Assembly: GCA_947306345.1 (NCBI GenBank)
Contig: CAMZGG010000003.1
Coordinates: forward strand, 1 to 44,832
Direction: 5' to 3'
DNA length: 44,832 nucleotides
Origin: an uncultured Caryophanales bacterium
GTDB lineage: Bacteria > Bacillota_I > Bacilli_A > RFN20 > CAG-826
The notes below the pieces were generated by a model. The model was given only the letters and a program-made list of their open reading frames with translations, searched no databases and was not told where the DNA came from. A program made the translations under genes and the position numbers. This document shows, one piece after another, positions 6,118 to 44,724 of this stretch. Each line of letters opens with the position of its first letter. Position 1 is the stretch's first letter.

Positions 6118-6146
6118 AATCGACTCGAATTGAGTCGTTTTTTATT
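6118..6146. terminator. Bidirectional terminator between rpmB and the lipoprotein gene
   Basis: CGACTC (6121-6126) pairs with GAGTCG (6132-6137). A T-run follows on the plus strand, and the minus strand reads ATTTTTATAT after the stem. It therefore can end both rpmB and the long minus-strand run that finishes at 6142. Confidence 0.8.
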
Positions 6147-7194
6147 TTATCTTCAAGACATTTGGTTGACTGACTTCTTCACCACGATAGTCTATTTTCA
6201 TATCGTAGGTACCGAAGAGATTCTTAGATTCATATTTATCAAATAAATAATATGTTTCAACAATATGTTGACCATGAAGGATGTTATGTTCCTTAATGCC
6301 TGCGTCCACTACTATTTCTTGTTGTTGCGCCTGATAGGTATCTTTATAGAAGTATGGTCTAGCGCCATCAAGATAATAACTACCTTGATAAGTAAATGAT
6401 TCACCAGTCCAAGTCATATCTGTTTCAACTTTGAAACGATGTGTTAATCCTGGATAATCCACTGGGACGTTAGTTTCAAACTTTGCCAAGGTCACTTTAA
6501 CACTGTAATTAGTGCTTTCTAATGTAATACTTGGTTTAAGTATTTCATAATCTCTAATATAAGGATTAATATTACCAAGGAATTCATATCCAGTACTGTT
6601 TGTCTCTTGGAAGTAAATGGCAATAGCGTTTAATCTTTCTTTAAAGTACATTTGGCCCCAGAAAATCTCACTACTGACCATTTCACGAGACATTGTGTCT
6701 AATGTTGATATTTGAGTACTTTTACCAGTGGACTCTTCATATTCATAACAAACAGTAACTTCGTAGTTGCTATCTTTGTTCATGTCAGTGAATGCAACAG
6801 AGATGACTGAACCATAGACGGCAAAGCCTTCTTTGTTGCTTCTGATGTTAACTGGAGAGACCCTATATACTTCTTCATTAAAATAAAGATAAGCATCATC
6901 ATAGGTTTGTTCCCCATCATGGGCTCTAACTTTATATAGACCAACACCATATTCATCAAATATATTATGTGGCATTATGTTATGGACATCTAAGGTGACG
7001 GTATCACTACGATAGGAGATTTTACCTTCGTCTTTATATTTACCAAAAGCTTCAGTGAAATCTTCGAGTCTATATTCATCACTAACGTTTAAATCAACGA
7101 GAAAATGATCGCTGCTGCTACTACCTGCAAAATTACAGCTAGCGAGGGTGATGATTGATGCGCCTAAGAGAATGAGTTTAGTAAAGTTTTTCAT
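6142..7194 (-). CDS. Predicted lipoprotein of unknown function
   Basis: The 350-residue product starts MKNFTKLILLGASIITLASC, a lipoprotein signal peptide with lipobox LASC and acylated Cys20, followed by a short Ser-rich linker. The rest is a soluble, beta-rich extracellular domain with many Tyr and Thr residues (VTLDVHNIMPHN, YEVTVCYEYEES, YKIDYRGE-like pattern near the end). I do not recognise a family. It starts one base after the stop of the upstream membrane protein gene, without its own Shine-Dalgarno sequence, so translational coupling is likely and the two may work together at the cell surface. It is the last gene before the terminator at 6121-6146. Confidence 0.8.
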   Translation of the reverse strand: MKNFTKLILLGASIITLASCNFAGSSSSDHFLVDLNVSDEYRLEDFTEAFGKYKDEGKISYRSDTVTLDVHNIMPHNIFDEYGVGLYKVRAHDGEQTYDDAYLYFNEEVYRVSPVNIRSNKEGFAVYGSVISVAFTDMNKDSNYEVTVCYEYEESTGKSTQISTLDTMSREMVSSEIFWGQMYFKERLNAIAIYFQETNSTGYEFLGNINPYIRDYEILKPSITLESTNYSVKVTLAKFETNVPVDYPGLTHRFKVETDMTWTGESFTYQGSYYLDGARPYFYKDTYQAQQQEIVVDAGIKEHNILHGQHIVETYYLFDKYESKNLFGTYDMKIDYRGEEVSQPNVLKIK

Positions 7195-7195
7195 A

Positions 7196-7879
7196 TTAAG
7201 ATATAAAGCTTAAAAGGATTAAAGGTATTGGAGAAAGTATATAAGTGATAATCGCCCACCATTCGTTAAAAGCGATTGGAATGGACTTTGGTCTAGCCAT
7301 CACTTCGTTGCCATCTTTATCAACACTTTTATCTAAATAAATCTTATACGTTGCTTTCGGATTAAACAAGAATATAACCATCACTAACGCAAGAATAATT
7401 CCAACTATTATTGCGGTGATACTTAACGCTTTTGATAAGTTTGCATCAACCGCTCTATACGTTTCAAAGCCTAATAAGGCATTAAGCGCTGGCATAGCAA
7501 ACGCACATGTCATGGCTAAAGTAGAAACAATAATATGCGTTCTTAGGAACTGTAATGGCATGAACAACAAGCAACCGATTAATGCTGCTGTACCAATAGA
7601 AAGAGCCACTAAAACATAAATGGTAATACTTTGTGAACGGGTATTACTCATATAGTAGATATAGAAAACAATTGTACCCACCATCGCTAAGACTAAAGCG
7701 AGGTTACCATATATATTCCTTTTAAAAGAATTAGGATAGTTAAACTCGTATGGAAACATTCTTTTAATAGAATATTTCACGTCGTGTTTTTTATAGTAAA
7801 AAGCCGATGAAAGAAAATATCCACCGACAAAGAGTGCTAAGCTAGCAAAAAATATGACGAGAGTAATTAAACCAGGCAT
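7196..7879 (-). CDS. Six-helix integral membrane protein, unknown
   Basis: The 227-residue product has six hydrophobic segments at roughly residues 3-24, 58-77, 85-110, 115-137, 150-175 and 207-226. A charged stretch (about 176-200) that includes LDKSVDKDGNEVMARPK separates the last two. No catalytic or transport signature is evident and I cannot name a family. It begins one base after the stop of rpe and ends one base before the lipoprotein, so the two unknown envelope genes appear appended to the conserved rsgA-rpe run. Confidence 0.8.
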   Translation of the reverse strand: MPGLITLVIFFASLALFVGGYFLSSAFYYKKHDVKYSIKRMFPYEFNYPNSFKRNIYGNLALVLAMVGTIVFYIYYMSNTRSQSITIYVLVALSIGTAALIGCLLFMPLQFLRTHIIVSTLAMTCAFAMPALNALLGFETYRAVDANLSKALSITAIIVGIILALVMVIFLFNPKATYKIYLDKSVDKDGNEVMARPKSIPIAFNEWWAIITYILSPIPLILLSFIS

Positions 7880-8540: not shown

Positions 8541-9403
8541 TTTGAATACCTCTCTTTTTTGAAAATTGCTTCTTCTGATAATTTTTTATAACATTCATAG
8601 GCGAGATTAGAAATCTCACCACTTTGTACCTTCTCTTTTACTAAACACCTATTTTCCGTTAAATGCAAGCAATCCGCAAAATAACATTTATTATATAAAC
8701 CAGTAAAACCAGGATAGAACGCTGCTAAGTCCTCTTTATAGAGATTTAACTCTAAAGAAGAGAAGCCAGGAGTATCAGCAATATAGCCACCTTGATATGG
8801 TAAAAGGATGACTTCTTTTGTTTGGTGTTTGCCACGACCTAGAGCCATTGAATATTCGCCAACTGCTCTTTCGTAATTGCTATCGATTGCGTTAATTAAG
8901 GAAGATTTACCGACACCAGTTTGACCCATGATGCAGCTTACTTCATCTTTAAATAAGGCCTTAACTTCTTCAATGCCTTCCTTTGTTTTATTGCTGATAA
9001 AATAGGTTTCAATATTGATGCTAGAAAAGGCTTCTTTGATCTCTTTAATTTGCTTTTCATCATGCTCTTTATCAATCTTAGTTATCACTAATTTTGCCTT
9101 GATATTGTGCATATTAGCGTAGGTTAGATATTTAAACGCTAAAAGATAGGAAAAATCAGGTTCTTTGAGGGAGAACACTAAGATGATTTGACTAATGTTA
9201 GCAATGAGCGGTCTTTTTAAAGATGACGTTCTTGGATAGATAGTTTCTATCACTAATTCATCTGGATTAAATTCCACGATATCACCCACCACTGGCTTAA
9301 CTCCTTGGTTACGGAATACACCACGAGGTTTGGTTTTATAGATGACGCCTTCCGCTTCAACAGCGTAGAGACCACATGTAATTGCAACAATTAAACCCTT
9401 CAT
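8537..9403 (-). CDS. rsgA: Ribosome small-subunit assembly GTPase RsgA
   Basis: A circularly permuted GTPase acting late in 30S subunit maturation. The 288 residues show an N-terminal OB fold, then G4 TKID (108-111), G1 GQTGVGKSS (160-168), G3 DTPGFSS (210-216) in the permuted order, and a zinc-binding C-terminus with C240, C245, H247 and C253. The ATG overlaps the prkC stop by one base (TAATG) and the TGA stop overlaps the rpe start. In Firmicutes RsgA is known to be a substrate of the neighbouring PrkC kinase, which fits the conserved gene order. Confidence 0.97.
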   Translation of the reverse strand: MKGLIVAITCGLYAVEAEGVIYKTKPRGVFRNQGVKPVVGDIVEFNPDELVIETIYPRTSSLKRPLIANISQIILVFSLKEPDFSYLLAFKYLTYANMHNIKAKLVITKIDKEHDEKQIKEIKEAFSSINIETYFISNKTKEGIEEVKALFKDEVSCIMGQTGVGKSSLINAIDSNYERAVGEYSMALGRGKHQTKEVILLPYQGGYIADTPGFSSLELNLYKEDLAAFYPGFTGLYNKCYFADCLHLTENRCLVKEKVQSGEISNLAYECYKKLSEEAIFKKERYSK

Positions 9404-10290
9404 TATTTAAACCCAAAGATCCTCGAGATGAGCGGTTTCTTTTCCTTTAAGATTTCTGGATGCTTACTTATTTCATATAAGTCATCGTAGAATTCATCCG
9501 CACCTTTATAACGGTCGCTTAAGCGTTTTCTTGTCGCATTAGCGATAATCTTTTCAATTTCTTTTGGACAGTTTGGCACGTACTTCTTAACTGGAGGGAA
9601 CTTCTCCTTAACGTGCGCTACTGCAACATTAACTGGGGTGTCTTTATCAAATGGGACATGACCAGTTAATAATTCATAGAAGGTGACACCAGCAGCATAG
9701 ATATCTGATTGAATAGAAGCTGGCTTACCTTGAGATATTTCAGGAGCTAAGTAATGGACAGAGCCCACGATTTCACTAGTTTTTGTAAAACTATCATCCA
9801 TGCCTTCGGCTTGAGCGATTCCAAAGTCCCCTAATTTAATCGTGCCATCGGGCATAACATAGATGTTTTGTGGTTTGATATCACGGTGAATGATGTTATG
9901 TTGATGGGCATAAAAAAGAGCAGACGTTAGTTGCAGCATATAGCTAACTGCTTCAGCGATTGGAATAGATGTTCTAAAGTCGAGCATATCTTTCATGCTT
10001 TGACCACGTACATACTCGTTAGCGATATATGGACGACCTTCAATTGTGCCATGATTAAAAACCTTAACGATGTTAGGGTGATTTAAACTAGAGGCAATTG
10101 TGGCTTCGTTTTGAAAACGACGAAGATTAATTGGGTTTTTCATGACGTCTTCCCTAATCATCTTAATTGCCACTTTACGTTTATTAATAATGTCGGTGGC
10201 TTCATAGACTTCCGCCATACCACCATGACCAATGCGTGCTTCAATACGATAGCGTCCGTCAACGAGGGCGCCAATTTTGATTGTACTCAT
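9403..10290 (-). CDS. prkC: Ser/Thr protein kinase of PrkC type, without membrane or PASTA domains
   Basis: A Hanks-type kinase that likely phosphorylates cytoplasmic targets. Within 295 residues are the glycine loop GHGGMAEVYE (21-30), catalytic Lys43, HRDIKPQN (135-142), DFG (155-157) and the activation region GSVHYLAPE. The kinase domain fills about residues 14-280. There is no transmembrane helix and no PASTA repeat, whereas Bacillus PrkC (about 650 residues) has both and uses them to sense cell-wall fragments; mycoplasma relatives also lack PASTA. It follows the prpC phosphatase gene after two bases, the usual antagonist pair. The kinase role is secure; the loss of wall sensing is inferred from the missing domains. 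Confidence 0.95.
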   Translation of the reverse strand: MSTIKIGALVDGRYRIEARIGHGGMAEVYEATDIINKRKVAIKMIREDVMKNPINLRRFQNEATIASSLNHPNIVKVFNHGTIEGRPYIANEYVRGQSMKDMLDFRTSIPIAEAVSYMLQLTSALFYAHQHNIIHRDIKPQNIYVMPDGTIKLGDFGIAQAEGMDDSFTKTSEIVGSVHYLAPEISQGKPASIQSDIYAAGVTFYELLTGHVPFDKDTPVNVAVAHVKEKFPPVKKYVPNCPKEIEKIIANATRKRLSDRYKGADEFYDDLYEISKHPEILKEKKPLISRIFGFK

Positions 10291-11048: not shown

Positions 11049-12096
11049 GTCTACTCTCCTCTTCTACTTTGGCTTTTAATTGACCGCATGCTGCGTCAAT
11101 ATCACTGCCAAATTCTTTTCTAATTGTGGCGGTAACTCCACCTTTCATTAAATAATCTAAGAAAGCGTGGACACGGTTACCACTGGAACGATGGAATTCT
11201 GGGAATTTATTTGTCTCATTATATGGGATGAGATTAACGTATCCCATTGTTCCTTTAATTAATTTAATTAACTGTTGAGCGTGTTCTTTAGTGTCATTAA
11301 TACCTTCTAAAAGAAGATATTCATAAGTCACTCTACGCTTTGTTTCTTTTTCATAATAACGCACCGCTTCCATAACTTTATCCAAAGGATAAGCACGGTT
11401 AATTTTCATTAATCTACTTCTTAGCTCATCATTAGGTGCGTGTAAGGAGATGGCTAAATTAGTTTGAAGATGTTCATCAGCGTATTTATAAATATTTTCG
11501 ACAATACCACATGTAGATATGGTGATATGACGAGCGCCTATAGCTAAACCTTTTGGATGATTTAAGATTCTGATGAAATCTAAAACGTTATCGTAGTTAT
11601 CGAATGGTTCACCAGTTCCCATGACTACGACATGGGTCACATGTTGACCTTTGTTTTCTTCTTTGAGAAGTTTATTGATAAGTAAGACTTGTCCCATCAT
11701 TTCTTCTGGGGCTAAGTTTCTTTGTTTACCTAAGATACCACTAGAGCAGAAAGAACAACCCATATTACAACCCACCTGGCTAGAGACGCATACCGCGCAG
11801 CCATATGAGTAGCGCATTAAAACACATTCGACTTTATAGCCATCTTTAAGTTCGACGAGTAATTTGATTGTGCCGTCTTTACTCACTTGTTTAGTGTAAA
11901 CAGTTGGTAAGTCTAAACAGTATTTTTCTTTTAAAACTTCACGGAATGATTTAGAAATGTCACTCATCTCATCAAAGCTTTCGGCTTTCTTTTCATAAAT
12001 CCATGAGTAAAGTTGCGTGGCGCGGTAAGGCTTTTGTCCTTCCTCCTCCATCAGCTTGATGAGTTTATTCATTTCTAATCCGTAAAGATTAATCAT
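11041..12096 (-). CDS. rlmN: Radical SAM 23S rRNA / tRNA adenine-C2 methyltransferase RlmN
   Basis: Methylates C2 of A2503 in 23S rRNA (and A37 of some tRNAs). The 351 residues include the radical-SAM cluster CNMGCSFC, the VVMGTGEPFDNYDNV motif, SLHAPNDELRS, and AACGQL near the C-terminus, which holds the second catalytic cysteine; the first is in YGCAVCVSSQVG. Both catalytic cysteines and the cluster are present. It overlaps the upstream rsmB-like stop by eight bases. Confidence 0.96.
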   Translation of the reverse strand: MINLYGLEMNKLIKLMEEEGQKPYRATQLYSWIYEKKAESFDEMSDISKSFREVLKEKYCLDLPTVYTKQVSKDGTIKLLVELKDGYKVECVLMRYSYGCAVCVSSQVGCNMGCSFCSSGILGKQRNLAPEEMMGQVLLINKLLKEENKGQHVTHVVVMGTGEPFDNYDNVLDFIRILNHPKGLAIGARHITISTCGIVENIYKYADEHLQTNLAISLHAPNDELRSRLMKINRAYPLDKVMEAVRYYEKETKRRVTYEYLLLEGINDTKEHAQQLIKLIKGTMGYVNLIPYNETNKFPEFHRSSGNRVHAFLDYLMKGGVTATIRKEFGSDIDAACGQLKAKVEEESRHE

Positions 12097-13348
12097 TCTT
12101 TTTGGCCTTTTTTAATGCTGCAAAATAATAGGAACCACCATATTTCTTATATGGGAAATATAGTTTATCTCTCACTAAAGTGAAGTTTTCATTATTAGCG
12201 AGGAATTCATTGATAATGTTGATACTTTCTTTCTTTGAAAGAGTGTCCACTAAGTAGAGGAGATAACCGTCTTCTTCCACTTGTGCGGCAGCTTCATTTA
12301 ATGCAAGTTTTTGATTGGCGATTAATTCATCGAGTTTGTTGAAATCAAATCTTAAGAAATAATCTGGTAAGAGTTGTAAGAGATTGAATCTACTACTCTC
12401 AGGCATGACCACGAATGTATGCACAGGCTTAGATAAGCATGTGATAATCGAGGAAGCTTGAGCTTCGTAAACATTGATACCTTTTACTTGGTTTTTGTTA
12501 AGGAAGTTTCTTGTGTTAGAAGCTGTCGCTAAGTTACCAGCGATGAATTCCACACCGGAAATACCTTCCTTTCTAGAAAGAAGGTCAATGAGTAAATCAT
12601 TTGGAAATTCGGTATAGATGGCTAAGCCTCTTAACATATCGATATCACCTTCATCTAACATTTCCTTGAACGCTAAAGCGTATGGAGTGGCTAAAGCTTT
12701 TTCATTAACTTCGTGGTTTTTGAATTTACCTTCGCCTTTATATAAAGCCATACCATTAACACCTTCAATTCTTTCGAATTCAGGGTATTTATTGAAGAAC
12801 TCTTCGTCTTCAATCTTCTTGTTATCAATTCTTAAAACTACTGGAGCAGGTTTGCTGTTAGCCTTTAAGGCTTTAGAAACCGCAATATGACCGAACTGTT
12901 TGTTCCACATCTTAATGATGTCCACAGGTGTGTTATAGCGGAAAGAAAGGAATTCAAAAGAACCGACTTCAATGTTTTCTGGAACGAGTTTCTTCTCTTC
13001 GAGATATGGTTCAATGAAGTCTTTAGCCTTAACATCTTCTTCTTTGAGATATTGTTGGGCTTCTTTGTTGCAGTCCTCTTGATCAAGTTTCTTAATAAAT
13101 AAGGCATTGCTAAAAGCAATCATTAAGGCAATCACACCCACACTATCTAAGTTTGGATATTGTTTGCTTATCACATTGGATAAGACCAGATAATGGCGAA
13201 GTACACATCCGACCATCGCGGATATATTCGCTTTATCCTCCTTTGAAACTTCATTCTTTTTGAAAGCTTGCTTTAGGGCAAGAGAAAACGGTGTGTTTTC
13301 GTTAATGATTCTGTTTAGGATATCCCTAGCTAAAACTTGTGGAGTCAT
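12089..13348 (-). CDS. RsmB-like protein, probably catalytically inactive
   Basis: By position (directly before rlmN) and layout this is the rsmB/sun gene for 16S rRNA m5C967 methyltransferase. The N-terminal 130 residues look like the NusB-like RNA-binding domain, and the C-terminus ends GGSYYFAALKKAKK, comparable with the GGTDGFFIAKLRK end of RsmB. The enzyme core is eroded: the SAM loop (usually DxCAAPGGKT) is not recognisable near residues 239-256, motif IV (usually DAPCSG) reads VVMPESSRF at 313-321, and motif VI (usually YSTC) reads YLVDTLSKKES at 365-375, without the catalytic Cys. The frame is open over 419 codons with a good AGGAG site, so it is kept by selection rather than decaying. 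Probably an RNA-binding pseudoenzyme. Confidence 0.75.
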   Translation of the reverse strand: MTPQVLARDILNRIINENTPFSLALKQAFKKNEVSKEDKANISAMVGCVLRHYLVLSNVISKQYPNLDSVGVIALMIAFSNALFIKKLDQEDCNKEAQQYLKEEDVKAKDFIEPYLEEKKLVPENIEVGSFEFLSFRYNTPVDIIKMWNKQFGHIAVSKALKANSKPAPVVLRIDNKKIEDEEFFNKYPEFERIEGVNGMALYKGEGKFKNHEVNEKALATPYALAFKEMLDEGDIDMLRGLAIYTEFPNDLLIDLLSRKEGISGVEFIAGNLATASNTRNFLNKNQVKGINVYEAQASSIITCLSKPVHTFVVMPESSRFNLLQLLPDYFLRFDFNKLDELIANQKLALNEAAAQVEEDGYLLYLVDTLSKKESINIINEFLANNENFTLVRDKLYFPYKKYGGSYYFAALKKAKKND

Positions 13349-30612: not shown

Positions 30613-31083
30613 TCAATGCTGCTTAGACATTGATGAATTTTTGGACTTCAGCCATTCTAGTTCTTCCTGTGAAAGACAATAAGTTGGTATGGTGACAGTC
30701 TTTTTTCCTGAAGAAAAACAGATATTCTCTTGAGCAACCGTGAAGGGTTTGGTTCCGATAACAATAGTTTTAGTTTCAATAGACTCGGTTTCTGCGAATA
30801 AAAGTTTTCTTTTGTGAAATAAGTTTCCATTTGTAACGCCATCTTCATCAAACGCCCAATATCGCCAAGCGTCAAAAAGAGTCAAAATGAGAGCCATCGC
30901 AATAGCCAATCCAAAAGCACCAAAGCCAATAGCTAGAGCGCCTTCAACACCCCAATCAGCTATGCCGATTGTAAGACCTATTGTTAAAAAAACGATTTGA
31001 CCTACAATTAGTAGCGCTGTAGAAACTGTTATAAACCAAGAAAAAATGATATCGAAATAACCTTTTTTAATAAATTTACTCAT
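30613..31083 (-). CDS. Small membrane protein with two helices and a PH-like tail
   Basis: Function unknown. The 156 residues have hydrophobic stretches at about 12-38 and 46-70, then WRYWAFDEDGVTNGNLF, ETESIETKTIVIG and KKTVTIPTYCLSQEELEWL, a pattern typical of bacterial membrane PH-like proteins that start with a two-helix hairpin. The ATG at 31083 has GGAG seven bases upstream, inside the preceding 47-codon gene, whose stop it overlaps by eight bases. The stop is TGA. Layout resembles the gene at 5289. Confidence 0.7.
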   Translation of the reverse strand: MSKFIKKGYFDIIFSWFITVSTALLIVGQIVFLTIGLTIGIADWGVEGALAIGFGAFGLAIAMALILTLFDAWRYWAFDEDGVTNGNLFHKRKLLFAETESIETKTIVIGTKPFTVAQENICFSSGKKTVTIPTYCLSQEELEWLKSKNSSMSKQH

Positions 31084-35957: not shown

Positions 35958-36344
35958 TTACCTTTCTAAAGCGATTAACTCGCTACTATTGATGACATCA
36001 ACACCCGCTTGTAAGTAGGTTCTAAGTAGTCTAGAAGCACCAAGAAGTGTGCCACCGAAATACCTGACCACTAATAAGGCGACATTATTAATGTCTTTTT
36101 TGTAAAGTAAGTCTAATAATGGATGACCAGCAGTACCTTTAGGTTCTCCATCATCACAAGATTTACTTTTCATACCGACGCGATACGCATAGACGATATG
36201 ACGCGCCTTTTTGTGTTCTTTACGAAGAGCGGCTAATATTGGTTTAAAGTCCTCTTCGTTATTTAAGGGAAGGAAGTAAGCAATAAACTTGCTTTTCATC
36301 ACTTCGATTTGGTTAACATGTTGTTCCTTAATTGTGCTTGCCAT
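35958..36344 (-). CDS. YigZ/IMPACT-family protein, N-terminal domain only
   Basis: Member of the UPF0029/IMPACT family, role uncertain in bacteria. The signature DDGEPKGTAGHPLL and VRYFGGTLLGASRLLRTY are both present. I chose the ATG at 36344, giving 128 residues (MASTIKEQHVNQIEVMKSKF), one base after the giant gene's stop; a longer in-frame reading to 36485 would lie wholly inside the giant gene. Bacterial YigZ proteins are usually about 200 residues with a C-terminal DUF1949 domain; that half is absent here. Confidence 0.88.
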   Translation of the reverse strand: MASTIKEQHVNQIEVMKSKFIAYFLPLNNEEDFKPILAALRKEHKKARHIVYAYRVGMKSKSCDDGEPKGTAGHPLLDLLYKKDINNVALLVVRYFGGTLLGASRLLRTYLQAGVDVINSSELIALER

Positions 36345-36345
36345 A

Positions 36346-39300
36346 TTAGATGAGAATAGTTGCTCCATTAAGGAAGTTATCAATTCTTTCACCGTATTCT
36401 TTGAACGAGAAAGTATTGCTATAGATGTTATTATCAACGGCTGGATCTTTGCTTGTTTCATTAACTGGAACAAACATTTCACCACCGTTAGTAACCAAAG
36501 GATTACGGAGCGCTAATAAGTATTGATGCGCTTCGGTGAGATATAAGGCTTGAGCCATATGGGCGTTCTTGCTTGGTTCTTGACCCATCATTGCAAACTT
36601 CGCTTTGATTTGTTCGCGGTTAGCTTGTAATGAACTTGGAGTAGATGTAGAACTGATGTAATCAGTGGCATCAAGCATACCTTCTAAACCATCTCTTTCA
36701 ATCTTATTGAGTTCAGCGTAGTCGGTGATGTCTAAGGTAGAAGCATCATCGTTACCAAAGCTGAAGACGACATATTGATATGTTGGTTTACTTTCGAGTT
36801 TGGTGTATTGGTTTTCTAAGATGTTATTGAATAAGCCAGAGATAAATTCACTGACAATCGCGGAGCGTTTATATTCTGCTGGGTCAGCTGCACCATTAGC
36901 GTTATACGCACTTTCAACGATACCTAAGATTAAGGCTTTTTTAGCTTTGATTGTATTAACGTTATTATCGTTAAATGTTGAGGCATCGATTTGGCCATCC
37001 GTTAAATCAACGAGGTTCTTTAAGCCTTTGGCTTCAATTTGATATGTAATATCGACTTCATCTTGGAAGTAGTTTTCCATATGGACGATTGTGGATAAGG
37101 TAGAAATCTTATCTAAAGCCGTCTTAGCAGGAGTTAACTTATCAGCGTCTCTAGCGATATAGGCGGATAAATCATTACCTAAGGAGTTATAAAGCATAAT
37201 ACCTTGAGCGGAAACGTTATGACCGTCGATGACGTTATATTGCTTGTAAGTACCCACTTGTGAGGTGTTGAAGATATGTGATTGATAGACGAACTTCAAT
37301 AAGCCAGTTAAGCGCGCTTCACCTTCTGCGCCTTTAGCGAAGTCAGTCATATTGTTAACACTTGTGTTATATGTTTGTGTACCTTCGTTATAAAGAACAC
37401 TCATCACTTGATAGATGTTATCGATTTCACTACCTTCTGGAGAAGTAGCGTTAGCACCACCATAGACGACTTGACCTAAGCGGTAGTAAGCATAGTTAAC
37501 ATCGCTATAAGAAGTTAAGGTACCTAAGTTAATAGAAGTGAAACCATCTTTGATGAATTTTGGTAAAGCATCAGCGAGAATATCAGAACTATTCACCGCG
37601 GTTAACATATTCTTGATTTGGGTTGGTGAGAGTTTATCTAATTCGAATGATGAGACATCTAGAGATGAACCACTGCCCATATCAGCGGCGGTATTAGCAA
37701 GATTCATAATGGAATCAATTTCTTGATACCAGGCTGTACCTTGTGCGGTGTGATAGACGTTAGTAGAAACACCAGTATCATCCGCTCTAGTGATTTCTTT
37801 GATGCGTGTTTCTAACTTATTAGCGGCGCTACCATAGGTAGTAACATCGAGTTCATAAGTTGAATCATAAGCAAAGTCATCTAACTTCACGAATGTACAA
37901 ATCTTACTAATTAATTCTTCGAATAAGGTATGACCTGTTTCATATTTATTGGTGTAATAAACACCACTATAGTTTCTAGCAGGAGTATGGAATAAGTTAG
38001 AATCATGCATATCAACAAGGATGCTCTTTAAAGCACCACCAGTACCGGTTAAGGCCTTTAATGTTGCAGGATCTGACATTTCCTTACCATCACGTTGAGT
38101 ATTGAATTCTTGATAATCAGTTAATAAGGAAATAATCGCGGAGATATCGCTATTCAAATACTTCGCGTTATAGTCGACAGATGTTCTTTGAACATTGTTG
38201 TTGTAATAATAATGATAGAATGGGTCAACACGATTGAATTCAACGGTTTGTCCACCACTTGTGATACTTAATTGGTTATTTTCAATAAAGATGTTATAAA
38301 TAGCGTTTGGTAAGCAGTCATATAACAAGTTGGAATTATTGAGGTTATTGAATAATGTTTCAATGACATCGATATTTTCACTCTTATTCATATCCGCTTG
38401 TTCAATCGCGGTTGTGGCGTTGCCATCTTTATCCTTTAAAGAATATAAGGAATCAACGCAGTCCATAAGATTGTTAATTTCATTAACTTGCTTATTTCTT
38501 TCATCAGTAAAGTTATATGAGCCATCGCTGATTTGTTTATCGGTTAAGAAGGTTGATGTGACGAGATATTCAATCTTACCTTCTTTGGTTGTGTAGTTAG
38601 TGGCATTCGCGTCTTTAGGTGACTTATCGCCTAAATAGATGACATCCTTCACACTACTTTGTGAGAGCATGGAGTTGAATAAACCTTGGAAGGTGGTCAT
38701 GCTGTTGACTTTGCCTGAACCAGAACGATGGAAAACATAGGAACTATTGAAGTTAATAATTGCGGTCTTCATCTTATTTAAGAATTCACCTTGGTTCATC
38801 TTGGAGTAATCAAAGTCACTACCATTGATAACACCATTACTCTTGGCTTCATCAATGACTTCGTAGAAGCTCATTAACTTATCGAGTTCAGCCTGTCTAG
38901 CTGGTCGACCATGAGCGAAGTCCATCACTGGATATTCAGCATCAACGATGTAGATGTTATAGGAAGAAGAAGTGTTAAAGGCACTATAACCTGATAACAG
39001 GTTATCATCAGCGACACGATAGAAGTTATATAAGCAGATACGCAAGCAGCTTGTTTCGTTAATGGATGTAAGTAAACCATCAAGAACATTAATTGGTAAT
39101 TGGTTAAGTGGGATTTGTGTACCAGCATCTGGACCTGTGGTTCTCTTTTCCATAACGCGTAAAGCGTATGTCATGAACTTACAAACACGAGAGATTTCAT
39201 CAACTTCAAAAACATCATTATATGCGGCGATGAAATCATCACTAGCGAAGTAGGCTTCCCATTCGTTAGCTTTATAAGTTGTATTGAGGTCAGTTTCATG

Positions 39301-42300
39301 AGCGGCTAAGAAGGCAGCTTGTTTCACTGTGAAGTTTGTATAATCACACCAATCAGTTGGTAATGATTCATCAGTGTTGGCTTTGCCACCTAAATAGACG
39401 AAGTCACGATAGGCCATCATATGGGTATCGACTTCTGTACCATCTGGATTGTATTTAGCGGTGTATTCTTCGAAGTATTGGTCAGAGTTTGCGTTGCCTG
39501 GTTTAATACCCCAGCTTTCTTTCCAGTCCCAAGAAGCATTTTCACCTGGTTTTGGATCCGCTAATAAGTCATATTCGTTAGAGTTAACGTTGAACTTCAC
39601 CATGGCGTCACTAATCTTTTGATAGAACCAGGCACCAAATTGATAATGGGTTTGACCATATTCATCAATGTAAGTGAAGATACCACTATGTGATAATTGA
39701 TGGAGCATATCGTTAAGTTCAACGATATCGTGAAGCTTGGACATATCAAAGTTCGTTAGGAAGTTCTTGGCTTCGCTATCGTTTTCAGGAACTAAATTAA
39801 TGAGAGATGTTAATAAGTTAGCAATGGCTTGACCTTCTTCAGTCCAGTTAAGGATGTTACTGAAGGAGACGTTAGTGCCTTGGTCAATTAAGAAACCACT
39901 TAAGACATCACCAAACATATCATCTAAGAATGGTCCTAATGAGGTCTTAAAGATATAGGATTTATCAACGAGTTCGAAGAGTTTTGGCAAACCAACTTTA
40001 CCTTCACCTTCGTCTTTTAAGTTATATAAAGATGTTCTGGTTAAGCCATCTGAGAACATATCAGCGGCTTTCATAACATCGTGGTTAGCAATGTATTTAA
40101 TGATATTAGCAATGGCTTGGAATTCACCATTTTCACCAGTCCAACCATTATGGTCACCGACTTCACGCATTCTTTCTCTAGTAACGGTCAAGCCCATACT
40201 AGAAGTAAAGTTAAAGACAAAGCCTAATAAACCATAGAGATTCTCATTCTTTTCATACCAGTCACCTGGTTGTGGATCTGGATTGATAAGTGGGTTTTCA
40301 AAGATGAGCGTTAAGATATGGACTAAAGAATCCACGAGGGAATCATCTTTGAACTTATCCATTAAGTTAGCACCATCAAGAGAACCACTGAGTGAATAAA
40401 TGTTTGCCAAATCTTCCCAGCAGTTAAGTAATGAACCAAAGTCAGTAAAGAATGAACGTTGGTTGGCTGGTTTTTTAGCGTCATGGTTAATAGCGGAAAC
40501 GATGACTTGGCTACTTAAACCTAAATCATTCATGGTGTTAGCAACACTAGCATCCGCGATAAAGACCTTAATGATTGGAACGATTGCAGAATAGATTAAG
40601 TCAGAAGCATTCATCTTACTAATCGCGGACTTTAAGTGATTAATATGAACTTGCTTAATAGAGAAGAAGTTATTTGGATCTTCCATTAAGGAATTAAAGC
40701 CGTTTGGACTAGAAAAGGCTTCTAATAATTCAGTATCTTTACCTAATTCAGCGACAACGCTTAAGACAGCGTGGAATTCTTTCTTATAGTTAACAAGAAT
40801 CTTACCTTGGCTAAGTTTAGCCACGGCTTGATGGTAAGATAGCATATCATCATCAGTTAGGTTAGCGACAAAGTCTTTGAATAAATCCAAATCAAAGAGC
40901 ATATCTGTGATACGTGGTAAGGCTTTTTCAAAGAGCATCATATCGAATAAGCAGTAGTTTCTACCTTCAATACGTTGACCGTTATTAAATACTTTAGTAC
41001 GACCAGAACTATCAACATCCACTAAATCACCAGAAGCATTCATCTTACCAACAATTAATTCGGTAAAGTCATCAGCGTGTAATGAAATTACTTCTTCAAG
41101 TTTCTTAATGGTTTCACCTTCCTTAGGTGTATAGGTTCCCGCTTTAATGAGGACCGCTTTTAAGAAGTCACGGTCGATTGTGGCGGTTTTATGTAAGAAA
41201 TCAAACAAGACATATAATTCATAGCCCCATTTGAATTCACAGATTTCATCCCAAGAGACTGGTAAGTATTTTTCAACTTGGCCCGTTGTATCTGAAGATT
41301 GTAAGTAACTGACTAAAGCTGGAACAACACGGGATAAGAGTTTGGAGTTATCAAGTGTTCTAAAGACATTGAGTACTTCATCAAAGTTCGGTTTATAAAT
41401 GATTTCCTCAATGAAATCGACAGTATCTTGGTCTTTAAATGAACGGAATTCTTTACGACCAGCATCGTTAGTAACCACGAGAGAATCCATCACACCACTG
41501 TCGAATAAACAGTCAATCATGTCTTGAACGTTTTGAAGCTCGTTCTTCCATTCAACATCACTTAAGTCTAAAAGACGTGTTGGAATGTAGCCCTCAAGCA
41601 TTTCACTATTTAAAGCAATATCCGCGGCCAATGGGACAATGCTTGTTAATAAGTTAGATTTAGTTAAAACGGAGAAAGTTGAATCAATGATTTCCTTGGT
41701 TAATAACTGTGTAGCGTCATACGCAAATTGGCCGTTTTCATCTTTAGTGATACCTGAAGCACCGATAATTAATAAATTAGCGGCGTTAGATAATTCGCTC
41801 AATAAGCTGACTGAAACATCACCGCTGATACCAGTTGTGAATGTCGAGAATAATTTGGTATCAAATGTCATGCCGTTTTCATCCGCAGTCCAGTTGAATA
41901 AAATCTTAGCAAATAATGAGTTATTATATGCATCAACGAAGTTACCAACATTCATGACTGTTTCATTATCTGAATTTGGTTTGTTCTTTTGATAGGATTG
42001 GTTAAGTGTATTTACTAACGATGTTAAAGGCATGAAGAATAACGCTGTAGTAACAACGAATGTCACAGCGGTTTCTATCGCCCCTAGCCATCTGACTTTT
42101 ACTGTTTTTCTTACAAACTTTGGAATGAGATGTTGACCAATGGCAAACCAAGTAATGAATGAGAAAAGGTTACCAAAGATGAGAATTAAGATGATATCTA
42201 CGATAAACAAGACAATCTTGATAGCAGATTCTGCGATTGCAAACGCTAAATTAGTTAAACTAGATGGTTCAGCAGAAACACCGAATACGGTATATAAGCC

Positions 42301-42630
42301 TTTAACAAATTCCGTAGCGGTTTCTTTAACGGATGTCACTGGGACATAATAGACCATGGTTTCAATACCATCATCAAATTGTTTGATGTATAAGGAACCA
42401 TAAATGAACTGTGATAAATCAAAGTTTTCAACGAACTTACAAAATGGATCTAAAGTGACGAAGGCAATGATGATAAGGGATAGCATGAAAACCATGTTAT
42501 GAGTGGATTTCCATACACCGCGTTTTAATCCTCTGAACGCCGCACCGATAGTGCCACCGATAAAGATGATGAAAATCACCACAAGAGCGATGTTGAAGTA
42601 AGCTGTGATTTGGTTAATGTCAAATTGCAT
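36346..42630 (-). CDS. Giant membrane-anchored protein with CvpA-like N-terminus and degenerate helical repeats
   Basis: Function unknown; 2094 residues, one of the longest frames likely in this genome. Hydrophobic helices lie at about residues 11-31, 45-62, 130-160 and 180-203. The first, with GAAFRGLKRGVWKS after it, resembles the start of CvpA (colicin V production) proteins. The remaining 1890 residues are soluble, rich in Asn, Asp, Ser, Thr and Tyr, and predicted to be outside the membrane. A loose motif (hydrophobic-hydrophobic-x-x-h-x-x-S-x-L/I-L/F, often P eight or nine residues later) recurs near residues 325, 429, 676, 891, 1194, 1433, 1544, 1682 and 1785. No sorting motif is at the C-terminus (NGATILI). 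It heads a six-gene operon and ends one base before the next ATG. Confidence 0.9.
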   Translation of the reverse strand: MQFDINQITAYFNIALVVIFIIFIGGTIGAAFRGLKRGVWKSTHNMVFMLSLIIIAFVTLDPFCKFVENFDLSQFIYGSLYIKQFDDGIETMVYYVPVTSVKETATEFVKGLYTVFGVSAEPSSLTNLAFAIAESAIKIVLFIVDIILILIFGNLFSFITWFAIGQHLIPKFVRKTVKVRWLGAIETAVTFVVTTALFFMPLTSLVNTLNQSYQKNKPNSDNETVMNVGNFVDAYNNSLFAKILFNWTADENGMTFDTKLFSTFTTGISGDVSVSLLSELSNAANLLIIGASGITKDENGQFAYDATQLLTKEIIDSTFSVLTKSNLLTSIVPLAADIALNSEMLEGYIPTRLLDLSDVEWKNELQNVQDMIDCLFDSGVMDSLVVTNDAGRKEFRSFKDQDTVDFIEEIIYKPNFDEVLNVFRTLDNSKLLSRVVPALVSYLQSSDTTGQVEKYLPVSWDEICEFKWGYELYVLFDFLHKTATIDRDFLKAVLIKAGTYTPKEGETIKKLEEVISLHADDFTELIVGKMNASGDLVDVDSSGRTKVFNNGQRIEGRNYCLFDMMLFEKALPRITDMLFDLDLFKDFVANLTDDDMLSYHQAVAKLSQGKILVNYKKEFHAVLSVVAELGKDTELLEAFSSPNGFNSLMEDPNNFFSIKQVHINHLKSAISKMNASDLIYSAIVPIIKVFIADASVANTMNDLGLSSQVIVSAINHDAKKPANQRSFFTDFGSLLNCWEDLANIYSLSGSLDGANLMDKFKDDSLVDSLVHILTLIFENPLINPDPQPGDWYEKNENLYGLLGFVFNFTSSMGLTVTRERMREVGDHNGWTGENGEFQAIANIIKYIANHDVMKAADMFSDGLTRTSLYNLKDEGEGKVGLPKLFELVDKSYIFKTSLGPFLDDMFGDVLSGFLIDQGTNVSFSNILNWTEEGQAIANLLTSLINLVPENDSEAKNFLTNFDMSKLHDIVELNDMLHQLSHSGIFTYIDEYGQTHYQFGAWFYQKISDAMVKFNVNSNEYDLLADPKPGENASWDWKESWGIKPGNANSDQYFEEYTAKYNPDGTEVDTHMMAYRDFVYLGGKANTDESLPTDWCDYTNFTVKQAAFLAAHETDLNTTYKANEWEAYFASDDFIAAYNDVFEVDEISRVCKFMTYALRVMEKRTTGPDAGTQIPLNQLPINVLDGLLTSINETSCLRICLYNFYRVADDNLLSGYSAFNTSSSYNIYIVDAEYPVMDFAHGRPARQAELDKLMSFYEVIDEAKSNGVINGSDFDYSKMNQGEFLNKMKTAIINFNSSYVFHRSGSGKVNSMTTFQGLFNSMLSQSSVKDVIYLGDKSPKDANATNYTTKEGKIEYLVTSTFLTDKQISDGSYNFTDERNKQVNEINNLMDCVDSLYSLKDKDGNATTAIEQADMNKSENIDVIETLFNNLNNSNLLYDCLPNAIYNIFIENNQLSITSGGQTVEFNRVDPFYHYYYNNNVQRTSVDYNAKYLNSDISAIISLLTDYQEFNTQRDGKEMSDPATLKALTGTGGALKSILVDMHDSNLFHTPARNYSGVYYTNKYETGHTLFEELISKICTFVKLDDFAYDSTYELDVTTYGSAANKLETRIKEITRADDTGVSTNVYHTAQGTAWYQEIDSIMNLANTAADMGSGSSLDVSSFELDKLSPTQIKNMLTAVNSSDILADALPKFIKDGFTSINLGTLTSYSDVNYAYYRLGQVVYGGANATSPEGSEIDNIYQVMSVLYNEGTQTYNTSVNNMTDFAKGAEGEARLTGLLKFVYQSHIFNTSQVGTYKQYNVIDGHNVSAQGIMLYNSLGNDLSAYIARDADKLTPAKTALDKISTLSTIVHMENYFQDEVDITYQIEAKGLKNLVDLTDGQIDASTFNDNNVNTIKAKKALILGIVESAYNANGAADPAEYKRSAIVSEFISGLFNNILENQYTKLESKPTYQYVVFSFGNDDASTLDITDYAELNKIERDGLEGMLDATDYISSTSTPSSLQANREQIKAKFAMMGQEPSKNAHMAQALYLTEAHQYLLALRNPLVTNGGEMFVPVNETSKDPAVDNNIYSNTFSFKEYGERIDNFLNGATILI

Positions 42631-42719: not shown

Positions 42720-43532
42720 ATGTTATTTAAAGATATTAAATGCCCTAATTGTGAGGCTTATCATGATCCGACACTAGAAAAGTGTCCAGAGTGCAATAAT
42801 AGTAATGAATTATTCAAGCTAAATAGAGTGCCAAAAAGGGTTGTTTTTTTACACCCTATTTGCCAAGTAGCGATGTTCATCATTGGTTTTGCCTACGCCG
42901 GAATGTATTTAGCGGAATTATTTTTTGCTTCTTTTATCAGAGTAATGGATGCTGATAATATCTACAAATCCACCCTCTTAATGACTTGCACATATCTTTT
43001 GATGTTTGTTTGTTTGATGGCAGTTCCACTATTCTCTAGAAGAAAGTTGTTCTTTGGTAAGTTCACTAATGGTATCGACTATATTTATGGTCTTGCTTAT
43101 GCCATCACTGTTCTAGCAGCAGGCGCTTTACTTAACGCTCTTATTTCAATTGCTCATACACCAGCGGATAATGTTAATCAAACTAACGTAGAATTGATAG
43201 CGACAAATTATCCTCTAGTTGGCATTTTTATCATGGGCATTATTGGACCTATTTGTGAAGAGTTAACATATCGTGTTGGCCTATATTCATTTTTAAGAAG
43301 AATTAATAAATATTTAGCGTTTGCTTTAACCATGTTCTTCTTTGCAATGATTCACTTTACATTTGATGCCGCTAACATGGTTGAAGAGCTCTGGTCTTTC
43401 CCAAGTTATTTACTCTCAGGTTTTTTACTAACACTAGCGTATGAACATCGCGGTCCTGCCTGTTCTATTACCGCTCACGTGTCTTATAATTTGATTGCCT
43501 TAATGATGGTAATGGTACAATCTAATGGATAA
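42720..43532 (+). CDS. CPBP-family membrane protease with zinc ribbon
   Basis: Likely an intramembrane metalloprotease of the CAAX/Abi (CPBP) family. The 270 residues open with a zinc ribbon (C8, C11, C22, C25) and continue with about eight membrane helices. CPBP motifs are EELTYR (180-185), MIHF with H212, and HVSYN (253-257). The zinc ribbon is an addition to the core CPBP layout. The gene overlaps the next by eight bases. Members act in immunity to bacteriocins, in prenyl-protein processing or in surface anchoring; the role here is unknown. Confidence 0.88.
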   Translation: MLFKDIKCPNCEAYHDPTLEKCPECNNSNELFKLNRVPKRVVFLHPICQVAMFIIGFAYAGMYLAELFFASFIRVMDADNIYKSTLLMTCTYLLMFVCLMAVPLFSRRKLFFGKFTNGIDYIYGLAYAITVLAAGALLNALISIAHTPADNVNQTNVELIATNYPLVGIFIMGIIGPICEELTYRVGLYSFLRRINKYLAFALTMFFFAMIHFTFDAANMVEELWSFPSYLLSGFLLTLAYEHRGPACSITAHVSYNLIALMMVMVQSNG

Positions 43533-44409
43533 TAATCGTAGATTTCCTTTATTCTTGAGTGGTTTTTGGCTAAAGATTATCGCCATTATTACTATGACAA
43601 TTGATCACATCGGTGTGATGTTTGACGTGGTACCTTGCCGTTATATTGGTCGATTAGCTTTGCCACTTTTCTGTTTAATGATTGCAGAAGGTGTTTTACA
43701 CACTAAAAACTTTAAGAAATATGCCTTAAGACTTGGCATTATGGCTAGCGCTATATCGATTATTATTATCGGTTCAGAAGTCATTCCAATCTTCCAACAA
43801 ATGCATTTAGGATTACGTTACGAAGGTGTGATTTTTCTTGACCTACTTTTAGGTGCTCTAGCGGTCTATTGCTTGATGAACAAAAGATGGTATATCAAAC
43901 TATTAGCAATATTACCATTTGCCTATGGCGTTGCCTCGTTTATCGCGATGTCGTTTGATGAATGCGGCTGCTTTGGTGAAGTCCTTTGGTTCCCATATTT
44001 CTTGCGCACACAATATGGATGGTACGGCATAGCCTTAATTGTGGGCTTCTATTTAGCACATCTTCTTACTGGTCTATTCTTTAAGAAACAAAGCACTATT
44101 TCTGGTATCGATGCTGAATCATATAAAGGTACACGCACTGAACAAATTGCTTTTAATCTTATTTCCGCTTTAGTTTTAGCGGTCATTACTGTTATCTATT
44201 ACGTTATTTATTTCGTCATGAGCCAACACATGTATATGAGTGTGATTTATGTTGTGCAATTATACTCAATTATTAGCGGAGCGTTTATTTTGCTTTATAA
44301 CGGAAGGCGCGGATATAATAAAAAATGGTTCCAGTATGGATGCTATATCTACTATCCATTACACCTGGCCATCATTGCCACTATTGCCGTAATAGTGTCG
44401 TCATTATAG
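43525..44409 (+). CDS. TraX-family integral membrane protein
   Basis: The 294 residues show the TraX-family start (LKIIAIITMTIDHIGVMF, RYIGRLALPLFCLMIAEG) and end (YNGRRGYNKKW, YYPLHLAIIATIA). About eight to nine helices are present. TraX was named for pilin N-acetylation on the F plasmid, but chromosomal relatives are common in Firmicutes and have no known substrate; the related acyltransferase-3 topology suggests acyl transfer at the membrane. Its start overlaps the CPBP stop by eight bases, so both are cotranslated. Confidence 0.88.
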   Translation: MDNNRRFPLFLSGFWLKIIAIITMTIDHIGVMFDVVPCRYIGRLALPLFCLMIAEGVLHTKNFKKYALRLGIMASAISIIIIGSEVIPIFQQMHLGLRYEGVIFLDLLLGALAVYCLMNKRWYIKLLAILPFAYGVASFIAMSFDECGCFGEVLWFPYFLRTQYGWYGIALIVGFYLAHLLTGLFFKKQSTISGIDAESYKGTRTEQIAFNLISALVLAVITVIYYVIYFVMSQHMYMSVIYVVQLYSIISGAFILLYNGRRGYNKKWFQYGCYIYYPLHLAIIATIAVIVSSL

Positions 44410-44421
44410 GAGGTAGTAACT

Positions 44422-44724
44422 ATGTTAAAACATGTTAATAATCGTGATGAATTTAATGAATTAATTAAAGAAGGTACTGTCTTAGTGGACTTCTTTGCTA
44501 CATGGTGTGGTCCATGTAAGATGCTTTCCCCTGTTTTAGAGGAATTAAGCGAAGAAAGTGACGTCCTCATTGTCAAAGTCGATGTCGATGAAGCTGGTCC
44601 TTTAGCCGCCCAATATGGTATTCAAGCTGTCCCAACACTTATGCTCTTTAAAAACGGTCAACGTGTTGATGTCAGAATGGGCTATCAAAACAAAAACCAA
44701 TTATTAGCTTTCATTAATCAATAG
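44422..44724 (+). CDS. trxA: Thioredoxin
   Basis: Cytoplasmic disulfide reductase. The 100 residues carry the active site WCGPC (28-32), FFAT before it, the cis-proline segment VPTLMLF, and a final Gly in the expected loop (MGYQNKNQLLAF). A strong AGGAGG site precedes the ATG, 12 bp after the TraX stop. Length and motifs are standard. Confidence 0.96.
   Translation: MLKHVNNRDEFNELIKEGTVLVDFFATWCGPCKMLSPVLEELSEESDVLIVKVDVDEAGPLAAQYGIQAVPTLMLFKNGQRVDVRMGYQNKNQLLAFINQ

Follow-up and report, generated by a model that had tools for sequence, protein, structure and literature searches.

A giant repeat protein with a CvpA-like membrane domain, predicted to be anchored in the envelope of uncultured Bacilli

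What could be the function of a single gene that occupies ~6.3 kb of a ~1.1 Mb genome? The gene in question is located in a stretch of 44,832 nucleotides (hereafter, the window) of contig CAMZGG010000003.1 from an uncultured Caryophanales bacterium (assembly GCA_947306345.1), where an open reading frame (ORF) of 2,094 codons runs on the minus strand from an ATG at 42630 down to a stop codon at 36346-36348. The original prediction described one 2,094-codon frame with four N-terminal membrane helices and a recurrent sequence motif, all of which is confirmed, with the correction that the strand is minus. Matches to this giant protein are present in 14 of the 15 other genomes of the genus, as 12 full-length intact frames and two contig fragments; the full-length products span 2,094-2,145 residues, that is, the length is almost invariant within the genus. 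Apparent partial copies in two draft genomes (L023 and L015 in G001, L006 in G015) are explained by contig ends that split or truncate the giant gene. The ratio of nonsynonymous to synonymous substitution rates (dN/dS) is 0.14-0.15 in comparisons with two ~79% identical orthologues and 0.17 with one 63% identical orthologue. The 12 further full-length frames of the genus, together with the dN/dS of ~0.15, rule out an artefactual or frameshifted ORF. Among the neighbouring genes, those for enzymes and cytoplasmic proteins show dN/dS of 0.04-0.07, and those for the CPBP and TraX membrane proteins 0.18; the giant is close to the latter and above the former, and therefore appears to evolve as a constrained envelope protein. 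Named records of the genus are labelled uncultured Bacilli/Erysipelotrichaceae; several are of ruminant origin, and horse faeces are the source of one.

Most of the protein is a repeat array. A hidden Markov model (HMM) seeded with an alignment of two segments around S325 and S429 and iterated over 40 homologues identifies 249 units in these proteins at an independent E-value (i-E) below 1e-3, compared to 0 in reversed sequences (287 and 11, respectively, at 0.05); the per-unit E-values are optimistic because the HMM was iterated on the same proteins, but the concern is limited by the reversed control and by a whole-genome search of 40 relatives, in which all matches fall within large open frames (486 codons or longer), almost all of which are giants recognized by the N-terminal profile. 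The unit of ~80 residues consists of a helix, an N-S turn and a second helix, often with a Pro, followed by a stretch with the signatures Y-[ILV]-[DP] and W-x-x-E-[LI]. In the window protein (all features on the minus strand), HMM units span residues 308-383 (S325; 41482..41709; i-E 5e-23, with a helix-turn-helix in the structural model), 411-491 (S429; 41158..41400; 2e-14), 878-952 (S891; 39775..39999; 2e-13), 1416-1469 (S1433; 4e-10) and 1664-1720 (S1682; 2e-15). A weaker unit at residues ~663-705 (S676; 40516..40644), also a helix-turn-helix in the model, is below the threshold in this protein and reaches 2e-4 to 9e-4 in two orthologues. The nine motif sites noticed originally are all real and, in the structural models, located at turns between helices. 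HMM support extends to five of them in the window protein and to S676 in orthologues; taken singly, positions 1194, 1544 and 1785 do not reach significance with the repeat HMM. In a self-comparison of the genus profile, residues ~1340-1460 against 1590-1705 score highest (51; 94.5%), the maximum for reversed profiles being 33.7, so that, along with the HMM counts, the anticipated internal repeats are recovered with significance. No tandem array is detectable in the giant gene at the nucleotide level, as expected for old and diverged repeats.

The C-terminal half of the giants in the family of the window is built of two to five modules of ~240 residues each. In the window protein, module comparison and profile self-comparison delineate three such modules with a spacing of ~240 residues (all on the minus strand), namely residues ~1160-1397 (38440..39153), ~1398-1645 (37696..38439), which holds the S1433 unit, and ~1646-1889 (36964..37695), which holds the S1682 unit and is the counterpart of the final module in other genera. 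Sequence identity between adjacent modules reaches 78% in one relative (G128) and 51% in another (G100) and lies at 20-50% in most; the final module can be equated across several genera. These sequence comparisons indicate that the arm grew by tandem duplication with divergence, in agreement with the original proposal of duplication and strong divergence. Repeat number, which had been expected to vary, does so between genera; within the genus the length, and presumably the number, hardly changes. The arrays of one relative, G028, contain 25 and 31 units at a spacing of ~85 residues. This genome, which has transpeptidase genes, carries at least three giant repeat ORFs (L039 1-7987, L115 1-9492 and L040 12829-15888), one of them upstream of a MutS-like gene.

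AlphaFold models were obtained for residues 1-1100 (alignment of 14 sequences) and 1000-2094 (13 sequences). Residues ~360-960 and ~1250-2094 are modelled as nearly all helix, mostly with a predicted local distance difference test score (pLDDT) of 75-95, and all nine motif sites lie at a turn between two helices. For the six serines with HMM support in the window protein or its orthologues, the chance of such placement is ~5e-5 under the serine background, a post-hoc estimate given that the motif was known beforehand. Recurrent homologous helix-turn-helix units, the hallmark of alpha-solenoids, are thus found by the HMM, by self-comparison, in the modules and in the models, which suggest that the arm is solenoid-like and of no recognized family. 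The HEAT/ARM-type alpha-solenoids, such as importin-beta and CRM1, are arrays of helix-turn-helix units as well and constitute the nearest Foldseek class, by analogy only; in contrast, the giant is bacterial and membrane-anchored and shows neither sequence similarity nor a significant fold match to them. Beta-rich lipid-bridge proteins of the AsmA and TamB type were also considered and are inconsistent with the nearly all-helical model. Of the envelope-anchored "solenoid or filament" suggested originally, the solenoid agrees with the models and the outside anchor with the charge pattern described below, but the filament is not supported.

The relationship of the membrane domain to CvpA can be traced through intermediates. 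This domain (residues 1-250; 41881..42630, minus strand) includes a conserved segment after the fourth helix (GNFVDAYNNSLFAKILFNW) and makes up 12% of the 2,094 residues, so that the giant is not a short CvpA protein consisting of the membrane domain only. A direct scan of the window protein against Pfam and NCBIfam gives no match, PF02674 (CvpA) included. However, PF02674 is detected in two homologous giants (E=3e-5 and 9e-4; 24.3 and 19.7 bits, below the curated cut-off of 29.3), and an hhalign comparison of the N-terminal 250 residues, between an alignment of 15 giants and an alignment of eight short CvpA-type proteins from relatives, gives a probability of 97.1% (E 7e-11) over 209 columns that span all four helices. 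Short CvpA-like ORFs of 252-305 residues are also found by the profile of the first 480 residues of the giant (A1), and one of these (G020:C6) is weakly matched by PF02674. The CvpA-like N-terminus, as originally claimed, is therefore borne out by homologues and profile-profile comparison rather than by a Pfam match of the window protein itself; it appears to be remotely homologous to CvpA and outside the PF02674 family as curated. The two share four membrane helices in the same order, whereas the CvpA-type proteins in these genomes are ~240-330 residues long and the giant adds ~1,850 residues. Proteins of 582-585 residues in G009 and G006 with weak PF02674 matches, candidates for a second CvpA paralogue in the genus, look ammonium-transporter-like by eye and were discarded. 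A PDB sequence search finds no match for the giant, and PHROGs gives two weak matches of unknown function; Pfam, NCBIfam and PHROGs contain no convincing family for this protein.

Hydropathy analysis indicates four N-terminal membrane helices, both for the window protein and for most of the distant homologues tested. In the window they correspond, by hydropathy and charge pattern, to residues 14-32 (42535..42591), 46-64 (42439..42495), 139-157 (42160..42216) and 182-200 (42031..42087), all on the minus strand, the first being predicted to run from outside to inside. The loops after the first and third helices are positively charged (mean K+R of 3.4 and 5.6, mean D+E of 0 and 0.2), and the remaining loops, like the tail, are acidic. 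The charge of the arm is -6 per 100 residues, compared to -0.9 in cytoplasmic neighbours, its Cys content is 0.6% as opposed to 1.4%, and N, S, T and D are abundant in it. From the charge rule and composition, we infer that both ends of the membrane domain are outside the cell and that the arm is extracytoplasmic. There is no LPXTG motif and no hydrophobic segment at the C-terminus (...ERIDNFLNGATILI) that would be compatible with a sortase anchor. A precedent for a four-helix N-terminal domain that holds a large outside domain is MarP (Rv3671c), the mycobacterial acid-resistance membrane protease, the N-terminal helices of which are CvpA-type. The two proteins differ in what is held, a trypsin-like protease in MarP and a helical repeat arm in the giant; Pfam and NCBIfam detect no enzyme family in the arm, including a trypsin-like catalytic domain of the MarP type.

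Relatives of the giant are widespread. Scanning with the A1 profile detects them in 77 of the 117 genomes and 28 of the 40 genera of the order, six of the 77 having short CvpA-like ORFs only, and in 115 of the 394 genomes of the class, with open frames of up to 4,000-6,000 codons. The locus has the same arrangement in almost all members of the order that were read: the thioredoxin, TraX and CPBP genes are divergent, and the YigZ, Mrp, PepP and GlpK genes follow on the strand of the giant, which at this standard locus varies from 619 to 2,776 residues. In the window, the YigZ/UPF0029 gene (35958..36338, minus strand) is directly downstream, its start being placed near 36338, a few bases past the giant stop, from orthologues; the listed frame 35958-36485 (minus strand) is overextended, with a GTG at 36485 that falls inside the giant. 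On the plus strand, the divergent neighbours encode an Rce1-like CPBP membrane protein (42720..43532) with a Cys-rich, zinc-ribbon-like N-terminus (CxxC...CxxC), a TraX-family membrane protein (43525..44409) and thioredoxin (44422..44724). The fixed locus in most order members read and the dN/dS of 0.14-0.17 indicate a housekeeping character; the term "system", used in the original prediction, overstates the case of a single protein encoded at a conserved housekeeping locus. G131 encodes a 619-residue member at the standard locus and a 2,190-residue member elsewhere (L103 4686-11258, L104 4354-6213), and in other orders of the class (L137, L138, L141), large CvpA-headed ORFs are adjacent, with ~800-1,100 residues beside ~3,000 or more. 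Elsewhere in the window, four minus-strand ORFs of 156-419 residues (6142-7194, 7196-7879, 12089-13348 and 30613-31083) have no Pfam match.

The computations thus establish an intact conserved ORF, a repeat array, a remote tie to CvpA, a helical fold where the models are confident, a conserved locus and repeated absence. The interpretation that we prefer, to which we give about an even chance, is that the giant is a housekeeping extracytoplasmic scaffold or tether of the envelope that combines a CvpA-type anchor with a helical arm; the outside location follows from charge and composition, and the scaffold role is our inference. Under this hypothesis, the four-helix domain would be embedded in the cytoplasmic membrane, its two ends facing outwards, and would hold an acidic, alpha-helical solenoid of ~1,850 residues on the outer side of this membrane. 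The solenoid would consist of diverged ~80-residue helix-turn-helix repeats, arranged in ~240-residue modules in the C-terminal half. By binding membrane proteins, polymers or a surface layer all along its surface, such a solenoid would most likely space and organize these components of the envelope. Several observations weigh against this interpretation. The models are poor for residues 1-350 and ~960-1240, and the underlying alignments of 13-14 sequences are shallow. A Foldseek search against PDB yields no significant match, the best being importin-beta/CRM1-like solenoids (E 8e-3, template modelling score ~0.1), and therefore the fold does not point to any specific binding role. Furthermore, the site is cleanly empty in 16 sampled relatives that lack both the giant and the tested wall genes, the usual neighbours closing up so that no large ORF separates CPBP from YigZ; the protein is therefore dispensable in some lineages. 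A tree of the four neighbour genes implies at least nine changes between presence and absence, the absences inspected at the locus falling in two families of the order; the tree gives no direction, but because the position is fixed, the gene is more likely to have been lost repeatedly than inserted repeatedly.

Among the alternatives, a large surface adhesin or receptor for the host, plant fibre or other microbes is the foremost, although we regard it as unlikely. The predicted outside location, the great size, the gut and rumen origin and the variation of repeat number between genera are compatible with an adhesin, but the nearly constant length within the genus, the uniform purifying selection, the fixed housekeeping locus instead of a variable island, the presence in almost all sampled members of the genus and the confinement of the repeats to these large frames are not what such a role predicts. 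Slightly less probable still, the CvpA-like domain could be the working part, involved in transport, secretion or tolerance of membrane stress, with the solenoid as a docking or gating arm for a substrate. In Escherichia coli, CvpA is tied to the export of colicin V and to resistance against deoxycholate (PMC6705877), and the membrane domain and the segment after the fourth helix are among the better-conserved parts across families. However, CvpA phenotypes are known from enteric bacteria only and the biochemical function is not settled (PMC6705877), the conserved neighbours of the giant are not transport genes, and within the genus, conservation is uniform along the protein, the arm being about as conserved as the membrane domain. 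A solenoid facing the cytoplasm as an internal scaffold is improbable: the best fold matches, non-significant as they are, involve cytoplasmic or nuclear solenoids, but the charge pattern, acidity and low Cys content of the arm argue otherwise, as does MarP, in which four N-terminal helices precede a periplasmic protease domain (PMC4992679).

The genus is probably a wall-less lineage: genes for FtsW/RodA, penicillin-binding transpeptidases and MraY/TagO-type proteins are missing in all 16 genomes (G000 and 15 relatives), several of which are less than 90% complete, the absence being common to all. The window also encodes a 295-residue Ser/Thr kinase (9403-10290, minus strand) in which Pfam detects the kinase domain only, with no PASTA sensor, which fits the absence of peptidoglycan. 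Across the order sample, a large A1-positive ORF is present in 23 of 23 genomes with transpeptidases compared to 48 of 94 without (Fisher p 2e-6, a value that ignores shared ancestry), and every empty site found belongs to a genome that lacks transpeptidase genes. A load-bearing substitute for peptidoglycan, which the missing wall genes of the genus might suggest, is accordingly very improbable, given that genomes with wall genes have the giant at least as often as those without, and its absences are limited to genomes without transpeptidases.

A text search of the open-access literature, with partial coverage, on CvpA and on giant or solenoid proteins finds no description of such a protein. 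The giant combines a known kind of anchor, CvpA-type, with an unnamed giant repeat arm. It is under steady purifying selection, has no convincing family in the annotation libraries searched, and its relatives are found throughout a host-associated branch of Bacilli. More broadly, and rather doubtfully, giant membrane-anchored extracytoplasmic solenoids built on CvpA could be a new class of proteins that organizes the envelope in a large part of the uncultured Bacilli, kept along with wall-synthesis genes and repeatedly lost after the loss of the wall. If so, the giant would act as an envelope scaffold linked to the wall and would shed light on the general role of CvpA domains. Because the giant is never absent from genomes with transpeptidase genes in this sample and is repeatedly absent from those without, an envelope role of CvpA-type domains becomes testable, and the giant becomes a candidate for a structural part of the envelope in lineages that no longer have peptidoglycan.

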